A stretch of 64,000 nt of DNA, taken from positions 744,001-808,000 of the forward strand of contig NZ_RJTX01000002.1 of assembly GCF_003729955.1 (NCBI RefSeq), in the 5' to 3' direction. Of this stretch, positions 4,964-61,645 are shown piece by piece. Numbering within the stretch: the first letter of the stretch is position 1; each line of letters begins with the position of its first letter. The position numbers and the translations under genes were made by a program. Under the pieces are notes generated by a model, which did not search any database, had not been told where the DNA came from, and saw only the letters and a program-made list of their open reading frames with translations. This stretch comes from Chryseobacterium daecheongense (GTDB taxonomy: Bacteria > Bacteroidota > Bacteroidia > Flavobacteriales > Weeksellaceae).

Positions 4964-5740
4964 ATGGCAAAAACCACCGATATTTCAGTTGAAGAGAAAT
5001 TAAGAGCTTTATACGATTTGCAGATCATTGATTCAAGATTGGATGAAATCCGAAATACAAGAGGAGAATTGCCAATTGAGGTGGAAGATCTTGAAATCGA
5101 AATTGAAGGACTTGAAAAAAGAGCTGAAAAATTTCATACGGATATCAAAGATCAGGAAGACCAGATCAAAACCAAGCATGAAGTAATCAACCACGCTAAA
5201 ACTTTAATTGAAAAATACAAATCTCAGCAAGATAATGTAAGAAACAATAAAGAGTTTGAAGCATTGGGTAAAGAAATTGAATATCAGGAGCTTGAAATTC
5301 AGCTTGCTGAAAAAAGAATTAAAGAATTCGGAGCTAAAATCGCTCACAAAAACGAAACTTTATCTGAGCTTACTACCAAGATCAATGAACTGAAAAATCA
5401 CTTGAAATTCAAAAAAGATGAGCTTGACGGTTTGATCTCTGAAACACAGAAAGAAGAAGAATATCTGTTGGAAAGATCTAAGGAATTTGCTTCCAAGATT
5501 GATGACAGATTACTGGCATCTTATAATAAGATCAGAACCAGCTCTGTAAACGGTTTAGCTGTTGTAGGATTGGAAAGAGGAGCTCCAAAAGGGTCATTCT
5601 TCACTATTCCGCCTCAAAAACAGATGGAAATCGCTCAGAGAAAGAAAATCATTATCGATGAGCATTCAGGAAAGATCCTTGTTGATGACGAATTGGTAAT
5701 GGAAGAAACAGAAAAAATGAAATCAGTAATCAAATTTTAA
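4964..5740 (+). CDS. CT398-like coiled-coil protein with degenerate zinc ribbon
   Basis: This is a 258-aa protein with a long charged coiled coil (about residues 10-190) and a C-terminal region aligned with the C4-type zinc ribbon of the CT398/HP0958 family. The framework of that ribbon is present (GGSFF-like, IPPQ, then a DEHSGKILVDDEL stretch), but no cysteine is left where the family usually has two CxxC pairs, so it should not bind zinc. It is co-transcribed with nif3. The family includes HP0958, linked to flagella or RNA in epsilon-proteobacteria. No role is established here. Confidence 0.85.
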   Translation: MAKTTDISVEEKLRALYDLQIIDSRLDEIRNTRGELPIEVEDLEIEIEGLEKRAEKFHTDIKDQEDQIKTKHEVINHAKTLIEKYKSQQDNVRNNKEFEALGKEIEYQELEIQLAEKRIKEFGAKIAHKNETLSELTTKINELKNHLKFKKDELDGLISETQKEEEYLLERSKEFASKIDDRLLASYNKIRTSSVNGLAVVGLERGAPKGSFFTIPPQKQMEIAQRKKIIIDEHSGKILVDDELVMEETEKMKSVIKF

Positions 5741-5758
5741 TACTGATTTTAAAATAAT

Positions 5759-5790
5759 AAAAAGCTGTCTCAATTTGGGACAGCTTTTTT
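5759..5790 (+). terminator. Terminator of the nif3 operon
   Basis: The stem AAAAAGCTGTC pairs with GACAGCTTTTT around a short loop and is followed by a T run. Confidence 0.85.
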
Positions 5791-5865
5791 ATGGGAATAG
5801 GTCAACTTCATGATCATAAAACAAGATGACCTATTTATCATTCTGTAGGAACCCAATCATAAAAT

Positions 5866-5892
5866 AAAAAACCGCTTAATCAAGCGGTTTTT
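5866..5892 (-). terminator. Terminator of the acyl-CoA ligase gene
   Basis: The stem AAAAACCGCTT with its complement AAGCGGTTTTT lies just past the stop of the minus-strand ligase gene. Confidence 0.8.
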
Positions 5893-5894
5893 AT

Positions 5895-7673
5895 TTATTC
5901 ATGATGATCATACATCTTATTGTACAGATCAATAAACTTTTCTTTGATAGCCTTTCTTTTCAGCTTTAACGTAGGTGTTAGAAGTCCGCTGTCTATTCCC
6001 CAGACTTCTGGAGTCAGTTCAATTTTCTTGATCTTTTCCCAGTTACCGAGATGCTCATTAATGCCTTCTATTTCTTTTTCAATTCTGTCCTTTAATTCAG
6101 GGCTTTTGGCAATTTCTTCCGGAGTGGAACCAATGCTTAAATTATTACGCATTGCCCAGCTTTTGGCAAATTCAAAATCAGGTTGGATCAGTGCACAAGG
6201 CATTTTTTCGCCATCACCTACAACCATAATCTGTTCTATGAATTTAGAAGCTTTGGCAAGGTTTTCAATGGTTTGTGGTGCAATATATTTTCCTCCTGAT
6301 GTTTTGAACATCTCTTTTTTACGATCGGTGATCTGCAAGAATCCGTCGCTATCAATATGTCCAATATCTCCAGTTTTAAAATAACCATCCTCTGTAAAGG
6401 CTTCTTTAGACATTTCTTCATTCTTAAAGTATCCTTTGAAAACAGACGGGCCTTTTACCGTAATTTCACCATCTTCCTGAATCTTCACATCAAGATTATC
6501 CAAAGGCAATCCAACAGTTCCCACTTTCATTTTTTCAAAACTGTTCACAGAAATTACTGGTGATGTTTCTGTGAGGCCATACCCTTCAAGAATAGGAATT
6601 CCCGCATTTTGAAACATTAAATTTAATCTTGTAGATAAAGCTGCGGAACCTGAAACCAGAGTAATGATTTCGCCTCCTAAACCTTCTCTCCACTTGGAGA
6701 ACACAAGTTTATCGGCTATAATTTCCTGTAGTCCGGATGGTTTGGATACTTCTTTCTTTTTAGTAATAAGATTTAATGCCCAGAAGAATATTTTCGATTT
6801 TAAACCTCCGGCAGAAGATCCTGTATTGTAAATCTTATCATATACCTTTTCTACCAATCTAGGAACAACACTCATATAATGGGGCTTTACTTCCTTCACA
6901 TTCTCGCCCATTTTCTCAATACTCTCTGCAAAATATACAGAGAAGCCATTGTATTGGAACAAATAGAACAGCATTCTTTCAAAAATGTGGCAGATCGGTA
7001 AAAAGCTGAGAACTCTTGTATCTTTATAATCTAAACTTTTCTTTCTTGGAATCCTTGGAATAGAACCTAAAACATTGGAAACAATATTGTGGTGCGTAAG
7101 CATTACGCCTTTAGGTTTTCCCGTTGTTCCTGAAGTGTAGATGATCGTTGCGAGATCTTCAGAATTGATGGTGTTAGACAGGTCTTCCACTTCAATTTGG
7201 GTAGAATCATCTTCACCAAGGTCCAGAATTTCTTTCCAGTTGGCGGCACCGGTTATATTGTCGAAAGTAAAAATACCCTGTAAAGATGGGATATTGTGCT
7301 TCACTTTCATAACTTTATTTAAAAGATCCTTATCAGAAACAAAACAGTATTTGATTTCAGCATCATTGAAAATAAATTCATAATCTTCCGGAGAAATACT
7401 TGGATATACAGGTACAGAAACTACCCCGATCTGTGAAAGCCCCAAATCCATAATGGCCCATTCTGTACGGGAATTGGTGGTGATCAATGCAATTTTATCG
7501 CCTGGCTTGATTCCCAGCTTTAATAGTCCTCTGGATATTTTATTTCCTTCATTGATAAACTCCTGAGTAGAGGTTTTCTTCCATTCTCCATGATATTTAG
7601 TGACAAACATATCATTTTTAGGATATTTCTCTAGAGCATACTGAGGTATATCAAATAATCTCTTAATCGTCAT
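5895..7673 (-). CDS. Long-chain fatty acid--CoA ligase (AMP-forming)
   Basis: This is a 592-aa adenylate-forming enzyme that activates fatty acids to acyl-CoA with ATP, at the cytoplasmic face of the inner membrane. The AMP-binding P-loop YTSGTTGKPKG is at residues 179-189. The second motif GYGLTETSP and the C-terminal hinge region (DGYFKTGDIGHIDSDGFLQITDRKKEMFKTSGGKYI, cited in parts as TGDIG and DRKKE) are intact. Length fits the FadD15/long-chain class of about 590-600 aa. It is single and flanked by its own terminator. The exact chain length it prefers is unknown. Confidence 0.93.
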   Translation of the reverse strand: MTIKRLFDIPQYALEKYPKNDMFVTKYHGEWKKTSTQEFINEGNKISRGLLKLGIKPGDKIALITTNSRTEWAIMDLGLSQIGVVSVPVYPSISPEDYEFIFNDAEIKYCFVSDKDLLNKVMKVKHNIPSLQGIFTFDNITGAANWKEILDLGEDDSTQIEVEDLSNTINSEDLATIIYTSGTTGKPKGVMLTHHNIVSNVLGSIPRIPRKKSLDYKDTRVLSFLPICHIFERMLFYLFQYNGFSVYFAESIEKMGENVKEVKPHYMSVVPRLVEKVYDKIYNTGSSAGGLKSKIFFWALNLITKKKEVSKPSGLQEIIADKLVFSKWREGLGGEIITLVSGSAALSTRLNLMFQNAGIPILEGYGLTETSPVISVNSFEKMKVGTVGLPLDNLDVKIQEDGEITVKGPSVFKGYFKNEEMSKEAFTEDGYFKTGDIGHIDSDGFLQITDRKKEMFKTSGGKYIAPQTIENLAKASKFIEQIMVVGDGEKMPCALIQPDFEFAKSWAMRNNLSIGSTPEEIAKSPELKDRIEKEIEGINEHLGNWEKIKKIELTPEVWGIDSGLLTPTLKLKRKAIKEKFIDLYNKMYDHHE

Positions 7674-58211: not shown

Positions 58212-58236
58212 TGCTTATGTAACAAAAGTAGCTGTA
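58212..58236 (+). promoter_or_regulatory. Candidate Crp-type operator, copy 1
   Basis: This 25-bp sequence is identical to 59083-59107. Its core GTAACAAAAGTAGC is a near-inverted repeat (GTAAC and GCTAC on the other strand). It ends 18 bp before a -7-like CATTTTTG (58255-58262) that serves the TauE/SafE gene, close to a class II activator site. Confidence 0.65.
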
Positions 58237-58285
58237 GGAGCTTTTGAATCTTTTCATTTTTGTTTCAGAAATTATTTGAAAGAAA

Positions 58286-59080
58286 ATGGAAATATTAGGT
58301 TATCTGGCAGCAGTTTTAATTGGAGTTTCACTGGGACTCATAGGTGGGGGCGGAAGTATTCTTACCGTACCTGTTCTGGTTTACATTTTTGGGATTGATG
58401 CTTTACTGGCAACAGAATACTCTTTATTTATAGTAGGAATCAGCAGTGTTGCAGGTTCACTTTCCTATTTTAAGAATGGCTGGGTTGATCTTAAGACAGC
58501 CTTTATATTTGGGACACCTTCACTTATTTCTCTTTTCCTTACGAGAACATACATTTTACCGCTGATTCCTGATGAGATTTTCAGAGCAGGTCATTTTTTA
58601 CTTACTAAAGATATTTTTCTTCTTTTGATTTTTGCGGTGCTGATGATCCTGGCTTCTTATAAAATGATCAGGAAAAATGTTGAAGTGAATCCTGTTTTAA
58701 TACAGTCCAATAAAAATAATTCTCTACTGGCGGCAGGAGAAGGTTCCATCGTAGGTATTCTTACAGGTTTGGTTGGAGCCGGCGGAGGCTTTATGATCAT
58801 ACCAGCTTTGGTGAATCTTCTTAAAACTCCCATGAAAGTGGCGATCGGAACTTCTTTAGTCATCATATCATTCAATTCTTTGATAGGTTTTTTTTCTTCC
58901 ATAGGCTCTGTGAAATTACAGTGGGATCTGTTGATTACTATTTCTGCCATTGCCATATTGGGAATCATCATAGGCACTTGGCTTTCAAAAAAAATTGATG
59001 GTAAAAAACTGAAACCTGCATTTGGCTGGTTTATACTCATTATGGGTATTTATATGATTATCAAAGAAATTTTTCTTTAA
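58286..59080 (+). CDS. TauE/SafE family sulfite/anion exporter
   Basis: This is a 264-aa membrane protein with about eight hydrophobic helices and the two glycine-rich family repeats: GLIGGGGSILTVPVLVYI near the start and GLVGAGGGFMIIPALV in the middle. Members move sulfite, sulfonates or related anions. In this cluster it likely exports the product of persulfide oxidation, which is inference from its neighbours. Confidence 0.9.
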   Translation: MEILGYLAAVLIGVSLGLIGGGGSILTVPVLVYIFGIDALLATEYSLFIVGISSVAGSLSYFKNGWVDLKTAFIFGTPSLISLFLTRTYILPLIPDEIFRAGHFLLTKDIFLLLIFAVLMILASYKMIRKNVEVNPVLIQSNKNNSLLAAGEGSIVGILTGLVGAGGGFMIIPALVNLLKTPMKVAIGTSLVIISFNSLIGFFSSIGSVKLQWDLLITISAIAILGIIIGTWLSKKIDGKKLKPAFGWFILIMGIYMIIKEIFL

Positions 59081-59082
59081 AC

Positions 59083-59107
59083 TGCTTATGTAACAAAAGT
59101 AGCTGTA
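59083..59107 (+). promoter_or_regulatory. Candidate Crp-type operator, copy 2
   Basis: The same 25 bp as at 58212-58236. It lies 18 bp before a -7-like GAATTTTG (59126-59133) that serves the persulfide dioxygenase-like gene, the same spacing as copy 1. Confidence 0.65.
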
Positions 59108-59156
59108 CAACAAATAAGAAAACAGGAATTTTGAACAATAATAACAATAGAACAAT

Positions 59157-60569
59157 ATGAAAATAGAACAAATTTATACAGGATGTTTGGCTCAGGGAGC
59201 TTACTATATTTTGTCAAACGGAGAAGCGGCAATTATAGACCCGCTAAGGGAAACACAACCCTATATAGAAAAACTGAAAAAAGATGGAGTGAAGCTGAAA
59301 TATATTTTTGAAACCCATTTTCACGCTGATTTCGTAAGTGGACATCTTGATCTGAGCAGAAAAACAGGAGCACCTATTGTATATGGACCTACTGCACAAC
59401 CGGAATTTAACGCTATTATAGCTAAAGACAATGAAATATTTCAAATAGGAAATATAAGTATAAAGGTACTTCATACACCAGGGCATACTCTGGAAAGTTC
59501 TTCATATCTTCTTATGGATGAAAATGGAGAGGAAAAAGCACTTTTCAGCGGAGATACATTGTTTTTAGGAGATGTCGGCCGCCCGGATCTGGCTCAGAAA
59601 GCGGCTGGTATGACTCAGGAAGAATTGGCGGGATTATTATATGAAAGCCTGTACCAAAAGATTCTTCCCTTGCCTGATAATATTATAGTGTATCCGGCGC
59701 ATGGAGCAGGATCAGCCTGTGGAAAAAATATGCAGAAAGAGACCGTAGATAGTTTAGGGAACCAAAAAAGAACAAACTATGCTCTCCAGCAGAAAGATAA
59801 AGAAAGCTTTGTAGAGGCCGTTACAGAAGGTTTGCTTCCTCCTCCTGCATACTTTGGAATGAACGTAGCTATGAATAAAAAAGGGTACAGCAGTTTTGAT
59901 GAAACCCTGCAAAGAGGATTACATGCTTTAACTCCGGATCAATTTGAAGAAATGGCAGAACATACAGGAGCTCTGATCCTGGATGTGCGAAGTAATAATG
60001 AATTTGCCAAAGGCTTTATACCACAATCCGTCAATATCGGGTTGGATGGTGATTTCGCTCCATGGGTAGGAACACTTATTGCTGATGTAAACCAGCCGAT
60101 TCTGCTTGTTGCCGATGAGGAAAAACAGGAAGAAGCTGTTACCAGGCTTGGAAGAGTGGGCTTTGATCATATTCTTGGATATCTGGAAGGAGGCTTTGAG
60201 ACATGGAAGAAAAGTGGAAGAGATATCGATAAGATCAACCGTATTTCGGCTGAGCAATTTGAAAGTGATATCAAAGAAAAAACGGTAAAAATTATTGATG
60301 TAAGAAAAGAAAGCGAGTACAAGGCAGAACATGTGAATGATGCTTACAATAAGCCTTTAGCTTATCTTAATGAATGGATAGGCCAGATTGATCCATCAGA
60401 ACATTTTTATCTTCATTGTGCAGGCGGCTACAGAAGTATGATGGCAGCAAGTATTCTCCAGGCAAGAGGGTACAGGAATTTTTCGGAAGTAGAAGGAGGC
60501 TTTAATGCGATCAGCAAAACAAATGTCCCGAAAAGTGATTTTGTATGTCAAAGTAAAATTTTAAATTAA
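59157..60569 (+). CDS. Persulfide dioxygenase-type MBL fold protein with two rhodanese domains
   Basis: This is a 470-aa fusion protein. The N-terminal metallo-beta-lactamase domain (about 1-250) has THFHADF (His54, His56, Asp58), then TPGH (His110), SGDTLF (Asp133) and PAHGAG (His182), as in ETHE1/CstB persulfide dioxygenases, which oxidise glutathione or low-molecular-weight persulfide to sulfite. Two rhodanese domains follow: one at about 270-350 without a catalytic cysteine (VADEEKQ), and one at about 365-460 with Cys421 in HCAGGYRS. This is the CstB layout. The next gene starts 1 bp after the stop. Confidence 0.92.
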   Translation: MKIEQIYTGCLAQGAYYILSNGEAAIIDPLRETQPYIEKLKKDGVKLKYIFETHFHADFVSGHLDLSRKTGAPIVYGPTAQPEFNAIIAKDNEIFQIGNISIKVLHTPGHTLESSSYLLMDENGEEKALFSGDTLFLGDVGRPDLAQKAAGMTQEELAGLLYESLYQKILPLPDNIIVYPAHGAGSACGKNMQKETVDSLGNQKRTNYALQQKDKESFVEAVTEGLLPPPAYFGMNVAMNKKGYSSFDETLQRGLHALTPDQFEEMAEHTGALILDVRSNNEFAKGFIPQSVNIGLDGDFAPWVGTLIADVNQPILLVADEEKQEEAVTRLGRVGFDHILGYLEGGFETWKKSGRDIDKINRISAEQFESDIKEKTVKIIDVRKESEYKAEHVNDAYNKPLAYLNEWIGQIDPSEHFYLHCAGGYRSMMAASILQARGYRNFSEVEGGFNAISKTNVPKSDFVCQSKILN

Positions 60570-60570
60570 A

Positions 60571-61140
60571 ATGAATATGTTGGAAATCATAAAAGAACCT
60601 TGGTCGTGGTATGTAGCGGGACCTTTGATAGGACTTACCGTTCCCGCCTTGCTTATCCTGGGTAATAAATCTTTCGGGATAAGTTCTTCGCTGAGGCACA
60701 TTTGTGCTGCATGTGTACCGGCGAACATAAACTTCTTCAAATATGACTGGAAAAAAGAAGCCTGGAACCTGTTTTTTGTATTTGGGATTTTTCTTGGAGG
60801 AATGATGGCGGCCCGCTTTTTAATGGTCCCCGGAGAAATAAAAGTAAATCCCGAATTGAAAACTGAGCTGGCTGCCTATGGAATTACAGACTACGGTAAT
60901 CTAGTTCCTGTTCAGCTGATGAATTGGGAAAACCTTCTCACGATCAAAGGTTTTGTAACGATGATTGTAGGTGGATTTTTAGTGGGCTTTGGAACAAGAT
61001 ATGCGGGAGGCTGTACCAGTGGACATGCTATTATGGGGCTTTCCAACCTTCAGTGGCCCTCACTTATTGCAACCATAAGTTTTATGGTAGGCGGTTTTTT
61101 AGTAGCCAATTTTATTCTCCCTGTTATTCTTTCACAATAA
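60571..61140 (+). CDS. YeeE/YedE family sulfur transporter, part 1
   Basis: This is a 189-aa membrane protein with the conserved YeeE/YedE motif GGCTSGHAIMGLSNLQWPS (Cys148) and further cysteines at 45 and 48. Related YeeE proteins carry thiosulfate, and PmpA/PmpB-type pairs carry sulfur in bacterial sulfide handling. It is tightly linked to the dioxygenase gene (1 bp) and followed 16 bp later by a partner, so the two likely act together. Confidence 0.9.
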   Translation: MNMLEIIKEPWSWYVAGPLIGLTVPALLILGNKSFGISSSLRHICAACVPANINFFKYDWKKEAWNLFFVFGIFLGGMMAARFLMVPGEIKVNPELKTELAAYGITDYGNLVPVQLMNWENLLTIKGFVTMIVGGFLVGFGTRYAGGCTSGHAIMGLSNLQWPSLIATISFMVGGFLVANFILPVILSQ

Positions 61141-61156
61141 TACATTACAGCAAAAA

Positions 61157-61645
61157 ATGATAAAAGATAAAGATTTTGAGATCCGTCATCAGGATACGGT
61201 CTGTGTAAATGAAAGCGAACTTAGCCATCGGTGGTATCACCATTTAAAATACCTTATAGTAGGGGTTTTATTCGGAATTGTGTTTGTGAAAGCTGAAGTT
61301 GTCAGCTGGTTTAGAATTCAGGAAATGTTCCGTTTGCAATCCTTTCATATGTATGGGATCATTGGAAGCGCCATTCTGGTAGGAGCTGTTTCGGTGTGGA
61401 TGATTAAAAAATTCAATATCAAAACCATATATGGGGAGTCAATCAGTATTTCTCCTAAAAAGTTTAATAAAGGACAAATTTTTGGCGGACTTATATTTGG
61501 TTTCGGGTGGGCGATTACAGGAGCTTGTCCAGGGCCGCTTTTCGCCCAGATCGGAACCGGTGCTTTGGTTATAATTGTAACATTGCTGAGTGCCATCGCC
61601 GGAACTTGGGTATACGGATATTTCAGAGAAAAATTACCCCATTAA
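61157..61645 (+). CDS. YeeE/YedE-type (DUF6691-like) membrane protein, part 2
   Basis: This is a 162-aa membrane protein of the second YeeE/YedE type, with GFGWAITGACPGPLFAQIGTG (Cys124). It has four to five hydrophobic helices. Together with the previous gene it would make up the two halves of a sulfur-compound channel. The short N-terminal soluble part holds a further Cys16. Confidence 0.88.
   Translation: MIKDKDFEIRHQDTVCVNESELSHRWYHHLKYLIVGVLFGIVFVKAEVVSWFRIQEMFRLQSFHMYGIIGSAILVGAVSVWMIKKFNIKTIYGESISISPKKFNKGQIFGGLIFGFGWAITGACPGPLFAQIGTGALVIIVTLLSAIAGTWVYGYFREKLPH

Follow-up and report, generated by a model that had tools for sequence, protein, structure and literature searches.

In the available parts of three papers, the persulfide dioxygenase, SQR, TauE or YeeE/YedE genes of bacteria are reported to be controlled by CstR, SqrR/BigR and FisR, and responses of this kind are assigned to these proteins and to OxyR, with no Crp/Fnr protein being named there as a regulator (PMC7315123, PMC8148161, PMC9774590). 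The genes of the locus described here are of the same kinds as the targets of CstR, SqrR/BigR and FisR. However, as far as these sources go, those three regulators belong to the CsoR-like, ArsR-like and sigma-54 activator families, whereas the regulator encoded at our locus is of the Crp/Fnr type. It has been reported that a Crp-like protein of Acinetobacter baumannii was persulfidated after sulfide (PMC7315123, consulted in part). This protein is comparable as a Crp-type protein with a cysteine modified under sulfide stress, but it matches E. coli Crp at 50%, its cysteine lies opposite the ligand pocket, and in that part of the paper it is not reported as the regulator of a dioxygenase operon (PMC7315123). 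Porphyromonas gingivalis CrpPg and PgRsp, which were compared by description, are likewise Crp/Fnr regulators of Bacteroidota, and CrpPg is described as cAMP-independent; the available part of the CrpPg paper makes no mention of persulfide, TauE or GTAAC. No Crp/Fnr-type reactive-sulfur regulator of Bacteroidota was found in the open-access literature searched.

In the family itself, E. coli CRP acts at class II promoters from sites centred at -41.5 with the spacing TGTnA-N6-TnACA and contacts cAMP through Glu72, and FNR oxygen sensors use four cysteines to hold an Fe-S cluster. The regulator studied here resembles CRP in its domains, in the predicted -41.5 centre, in the TGTnA-N6-TnACA spacing and in the apparent reading of G by Glu and of A by Val at position 7. 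It differs from CRP in having Met at the position of Glu72, a TGTAAC operator with an asymmetric right half, and sulfur genes as its neighbors.

The locus and its repeated element

The window, that is, the whole stretch of DNA analysed, comprises 64,000 nt of Chryseobacterium daecheongense (GCF_003729955.1, contig NZ_RJTX01000002.1, positions 744,001 to 808,000). The features around the element are listed below, with promoter starts predicted by the box rule in the available part of PMC9723704.

57574..58206, + strand: Crp/Fnr-type regulator, 210 aa (ORF; Pfam cNMP_binding and HTH_Crp_2; alignments)
58212..58236, + strand: candidate operator 1, core 58215-58236; half-sites GTAAC 58219-58223 and GTAGC 58228-58232; centre 58225.5
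58255..58262, + strand: -7 box CATTTTTG of the TauE promoter (box rule of PMC9723704); predicted start 58267, leader 19 nt
58286..59080, + strand: TauE/SafE-type exporter, 264 aa (ORF; Pfam PF01925)
59083..59107, + strand: candidate operator 2; half-sites GTAAC 59090-59094 and GTAGC 59099-59103; centre 59096.5
59126..59133, + strand: -7 box GAATTTTG of the dioxygenase promoter (box rule of PMC9723704); predicted start 59138, leader 19 nt
59157..60569, + strand: MBL-rhodanese-rhodanese protein, 470 aa (Pfam Lactamase_B and two Rhodanese stretches)
60571..61140, + strand: YeeE/YedE half, 189 aa (ORF; Pfam Sulf_transp)
61157..61645, + strand: YeeE/YedE second half, 162 aa (ORF; Pfam Sulf_transp and DUF6691)

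The exact sequence TGCTTATGTAACAAAAGTAGCTGTA is present at both 58212-58236 and 59083-59107, with the two copies 871 bp apart and each copy separated by 18 bp from its -7 box, CATTTTTG or GAATTTTG. Searching the window with the 25-mer at up to three mismatches gave two matches against none in 100 shuffles, and the same search over the whole genome (3.83 Mb, 7 contigs) returned only these two positions, with no match for the reversed control. The exact 25-bp repeat at a constant distance from a -7 box, noticed in an earlier sequence-only reading, was thus confirmed, but the conserved part is about 22 of the 25 bp, the first bases differing between species.

The same reading had taken the gene just upstream of the element for a Crp/Fnr regulator, and this identification held, since the Pfam families cNMP_binding and HTH_Crp_2 (PF00027 and PF13545) both scored above their cut-offs, which places the protein in the CRP/FNR superfamily. 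It does not group with the cAMP-responsive CRP, as its score for the CRP equivalog was 55 bits against a cut-off of 266 and Met aligns with Glu72, nor with the FNR oxygen sensors, as Cys76 is its only cysteine. The MBL-rhodanese-rhodanese protein (59157..60569) is presumably of the persulfide dioxygenase type and is called the dioxygenase below; the YeeE/YedE half at 60571..61140 is probably in one operon with it. A second dioxygenase in this genome, 70% identical to that of the window, is encoded elsewhere (L229; G000 contig 3, 781463-792869, gene 5001-6407 on the minus strand), and a pattern search found no strict operator site in front of it.

Conservation of the element and its distance to the promoter

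Thirty-six genomes of the genus were sampled, including the window's own, and an orthologue of the regulator (E below 1e-100) was found in 27 of them, the window's own being counted. When the 27 orthologous loci were searched with the 25-mer alone at up to six mismatches, 47 sites were obtained in 26 loci, the 27th locus being cut by a contig end. The sites share a consensus of about 22 bp, [CG]TTnTGTAACAAAAGTRRCnGTR, in which the right half-site is GTRRC at 45 of the 47 sites and is followed by nGTR; TTTG stands at an identical distance in 47/47, with most of the intervening bases variable. The 22-bp core was present at 0-1 mismatch in 27/27 genus genomes with the orthologue and in 0/9 without it, which is weak evidence only because the locus may have been lost in one piece. 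In the genus, no copy is more than about 5 kb away from the regulator, the exceptions being G001, where a contig break lies between, and one copy in G026, which precedes a rhodanese-like gene. At three loci (L076, L092 and L146) the site precedes YeeE where TauE and the dioxygenase are absent from the locus.

The dyad that had been read from the element is weak in the genus. Of the 11 base pairs about its centre, four are complementary in most sites (45, 47, 46 and 35 of 47) and the other seven are not (0, 1, 0, 7, 1, 3 and 0 of 47). Symmetry in the genus alone was therefore dropped as evidence; it took relatives from other families to make the dyad clear. Across most of the class, GTTAC, GTCAC or GTAAC forms the right half. 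Because GTnAC reads identically on both strands except for its middle base, GTAAC-N4-GTAAC is a direct and an inverted repeat at once.

The dioxygenase (E up to 1e-60) was found in 247 of the 295 genomes of the class, and 120 of the matches listed were fetched, these loci being chosen by the dioxygenase only, with no pre-selection on the site. The pattern GTnAC-N4-G[TC]n[AG]C was found 40 nt before TTTG at 66 sites in 49 of the 120 loci; among the other offsets from 30 to 50, offset 41 had 12 sites and none of the remaining 19 had more than three (0-3, mean 1.3). The strict site at offset 40 was missing from 71 of the 120 loci. The 66 sites precede the dioxygenase (28), TauE (19), YeeE (1) and other or unassigned genes (18), some of which are rhodanese-, OsmC-, TolC- or YgaP-like by eye.

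In Flavobacterium psychrophilum the sigma-A box TAnnTTTG is located at -12 to -5, according to the available part of the source (PMC9723704). As this box spans -12 to -5, the dyad centre falls at -41.5 and the genus GTR at -33 to -31, and the earlier estimate of a centre near -42 agrees with this, provided that transcription starts where flavobacterial sigma-A promoters put it (PMC9723704, in part). A TTG start was absent from -39 to -29 at all 47 genus sites, in keeping with the expected lack of TTG at -33, and between -34 and -31 it was found at 0/47 genus sites and 1/66 class sites. A centre at -41.5 from the predicted start, together with the missing -33 TTG, is the arrangement of a class II promoter. 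The GTR at -33 in the genus may be a contact of the polymerase.

When the genome collection was scanned for exact matches to TTNTGTAACAAAAGTRRCNGTR, at least 119 stretches were obtained; among the 80 matches listed, 79 were from Bacteroidota, many of them from Chryseobacterium, and one was from a Cloacimonadota MAG, where the copy lacks both TTTG and an evident promoter. A slightly looser pattern was run on 119 of these loci and three others, giving 166 copies with TTTG exactly 22 nt on in 137. The next gene was TauE (56), the dioxygenase (45), a divergent dioxygenase (12), YeeE (10) or another gene (38), and five copies had a DNA end or no ORF. The sequence-only reading had proposed scanning related genomes for the element before TauE/SafE, dioxygenase and YeeE genes, and 123/166 copies precede these genes. 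We judged 32 of the 38 other genes to be sulfur-related, with Pfam being run on ten representatives and the remainder named by likeness to those ten. The representatives were TauE, a YgaP-like TM protein, AhpC/1-Cys peroxiredoxin, Pyr_redox (which we take to be SQR-like), OsmC, two rhodaneses, DUF6132, a Pyr_redox-rhodanese fusion, and the gene at L089 with no family.

Copies at unrelated loci without the regulator had been named as what would speak against the proposal, and this was followed up in part. Six of the 38 other copies (L038, L089, L094, L134, L168 and L177) and the five end copies have no evident sulfur gene; these 11 of the 166 copies, which either lack an evident sulfur gene or lie where the DNA examined ends, include L035, a one-mismatch copy in another family. 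A regulator match was absent from the fetched DNA around 34/166 copies. Seventeen genomes were checked, comprising 16 with copies of this kind and that of L119, and all 17 encode a regulator of the subfamily (best E 1e-40 to 1e-116), of the Val type described below and with the pocket Cys in each.

Two irregularities concern SQR-like genes. Flavobacteriaceae copies at L116, L131, L138, L173 and L188 have TTTA, with other promoters having TTTG. At L134 (Formosa maritima, copy at 632 of the minus-strand reading), an SQR-like gene of close relatives starts ATGGCTAAA or ATGTCTAAA, and at the corresponding place here the DNA reads ATAGCTAAA, which may reflect an error in the sequence or a non-standard start.

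Recognition helix and operator base

The recognition helix of the window regulator, GTARVVVSR, has Val at the position of CRP Glu181. This residue was set against base 7 of the half-sites at those loci that have a single regulator and a strict site (offset 40 or 41). In the first sample (137 loci offered, 25 counted), G at position 7 occurred with Glu at 8/8 loci and with Val at 2/17 (Fisher 4e-5); in the enlarged sample, which includes the first (227 offered, 135 with a regulator, 63 counted), the counts were 15/16 and 4/47 (Fisher 5e-10), or 20/22 and 4/62 by site, the Fisher values being inflated by relatedness of the loci. The strict site was absent from the fetched DNA at 54 of the 135 regulator loci, and these were left out of the 63 together with 13 duplicates, four further genus loci and one locus with two regulators. 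Genus rows among the 47 Val loci are L079 and L387, the latter being the window's own locus, and two of the four Val exceptions (L284 and L329) are near relatives. A tree made after masking of the trait residues showed five changes of the helix residue and nine of the G trait; the four independent pairs on supported branches were concordant in 3.6 cases on average and never opposite (p 0.125), which is too few for significance, and their number was still four after the second sample.

Classic specificity changes at Glu181 were reportedly found in the CAP mutants of Ebright in 1984, and the direction seen here, Glu with G and Val with A, would match these mutants.

A second rule was also considered. 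Among Val-type regulators, those with A/V before Arg, the window's branch, had a right half GTnGC at 14/25 sites and the others (S/T) at 2/37 (Fisher 1e-5). A dependence of the fourth letter of the right half on this residue was rejected, because the residue changed once on the tree and the pattern is indistinguishable from shared ancestry.

The window's genome also encodes a second regulator of the subfamily, 53% identical and of the Glu type (L063; G000 contig 4, 499000-509000, gene from 4794), with an operator-like site at 5399, a rhodanese gene from 5468, an OsmC-like gene from 5782, and TolC-like and efflux-type genes by eye. The site, just downstream of the paralogue gene, is GTAAC-ttac-ATCAC, 40 nt before TTTG, and fits the Glu rule because ATCAC puts G at position 7; the identical site stands before a similar gene in G032 (L066). 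Another locus (L322, G327 contig 2) has four operator-like sites and two regulators, one of the Val and one of the Glu type; position 7 is not G in three of its sites, and the fourth reads GTGAC-GTCAC.

Proposed regulation and candidate signal

The element very probably serves as the binding site of the adjacently encoded regulator, as the sequence-only reading had proposed. This assignment draws on the geometry across the class, the covariation of residue and base, the regulator in 17/17 genomes, and the placement before YeeE at loci that lack TauE and the dioxygenase there. Points against it are the poorly symmetric element of the genus, the lack of a strict site at 71/120 dioxygenase loci, at L229 and in the fetched DNA of 54/135 regulator loci, the small number of independent pairs on the tree (four), and the 11/166 copies with no evident sulfur gene or at a DNA end. 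From sequence comparison, we give a probability of roughly 0.82 to the reading that the element is the operator of the upstream regulator, which would act as a class II activator of both promoters, with a regulon shared in many Bacteroidota. A dimer of the regulator would sit on TGTAAC-N4-GTnRC, centred at -41.5, in place of the absent -33 box, and would recruit RNA polymerase for class II activation of two promoters, the first serving the TauE exporter and the second the dioxygenase together with the two YeeE/YedE halves. In many Bacteroidota, the same combination of regulator and operator would run a sulfide/persulfide-handling regulon. The proposed joint control of export and persulfide oxidation is suggested by the position of the two sites.

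The likeliest signal would be reactive sulfur acting at Cys76, which would lie in the counterpart of the cAMP pocket of CRP. In an alignment with solved structures Cys76 is placed in the cassette that binds cAMP in CRP; the best sequence match among these, the Crp/Fnr-family regulator of PDB 3dv8 (E 1.1e-21), also has Cys at this position, but it is distant and its helix, REVITR, is of the Glu type. Cys76 is invariant in the ten rows of an alignment of diverse relatives and was found by a rough pattern in 139 of 142 distinct regulators; of the three misses, two seem to be due to parsing, since GESC is read in paralogues with that type of helix. Outside the window's branch, a further Cys is present six residues after Cys76 in most regulators, at a position where the branch itself mostly has Gly. 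We give even odds to the fuller proposal that an undescribed CRP/FNR activator class of Bacteroidota senses reactive sulfur via a cysteine in the former cAMP pocket, the window's branch having a single pocket Cys and an asymmetric operator (with the extra GTR at -33 in the genus) and most other branches having C-x5-C and more symmetric operators.

A less probable but substantial alternative keeps the regulator and operator as described and changes the signal, which might be NO, oxygen, a metabolite or a redox change of a general kind. Many signals are bound within the CRP/FNR family, and Cys76 is retained in paralogues too, so that it is not special to the window's locus; against this, the genes downstream mostly act on sulfide or persulfide or transport sulfur, and the one pocket cysteine is conserved. 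It is unlikely that the regulator binds these sites but represses, blocking the polymerase from -41.5 until reactive sulfur releases it. A protein covering the -33 region could do so, and the best-known regulators of reactive sulfur, CstR and SqrR/BigR, are repressors according to the parts of the papers available (PMC8148161, PMC9774590), but the rigid spacing to the -7 box and the absent -33 TTG are what an activator needs. Compared with activation at class II promoters, repression tolerates other distances. It is very improbable that the element is read by something else, for instance a different regulator or an alternative sigma factor, and that the Crp-type gene is a mere neighbor: the genus element is asymmetric and partly direct-repeat-like (GTAAC-N4-GTARC), an uncommon arrangement for the site of a dimeric Crp-type protein, but residue and base covary, symmetric forms of the site stand at the same distance elsewhere in the class, and a standard -7 box is retained. 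Recent duplication or chance identity without function, which the two exact copies 871 bp apart at one locus could suggest, is rejected by the shuffles and by conservation in the genus, where two copies persist separately with differing flanks in 21/27 loci.

With the operator reading, a large phylum would gain a candidate regulator, operator and gene list for sulfide/persulfide stress, the published reactive-sulfur regulators that we found being of other families. The residue-to-base rule at position 7 (Glu/G, Val/A) looks like a natural version of the CAP specificity mutants, and together with the fixed 40-nt distance it may make the regulon predictable in unannotated Bacteroidota genomes.
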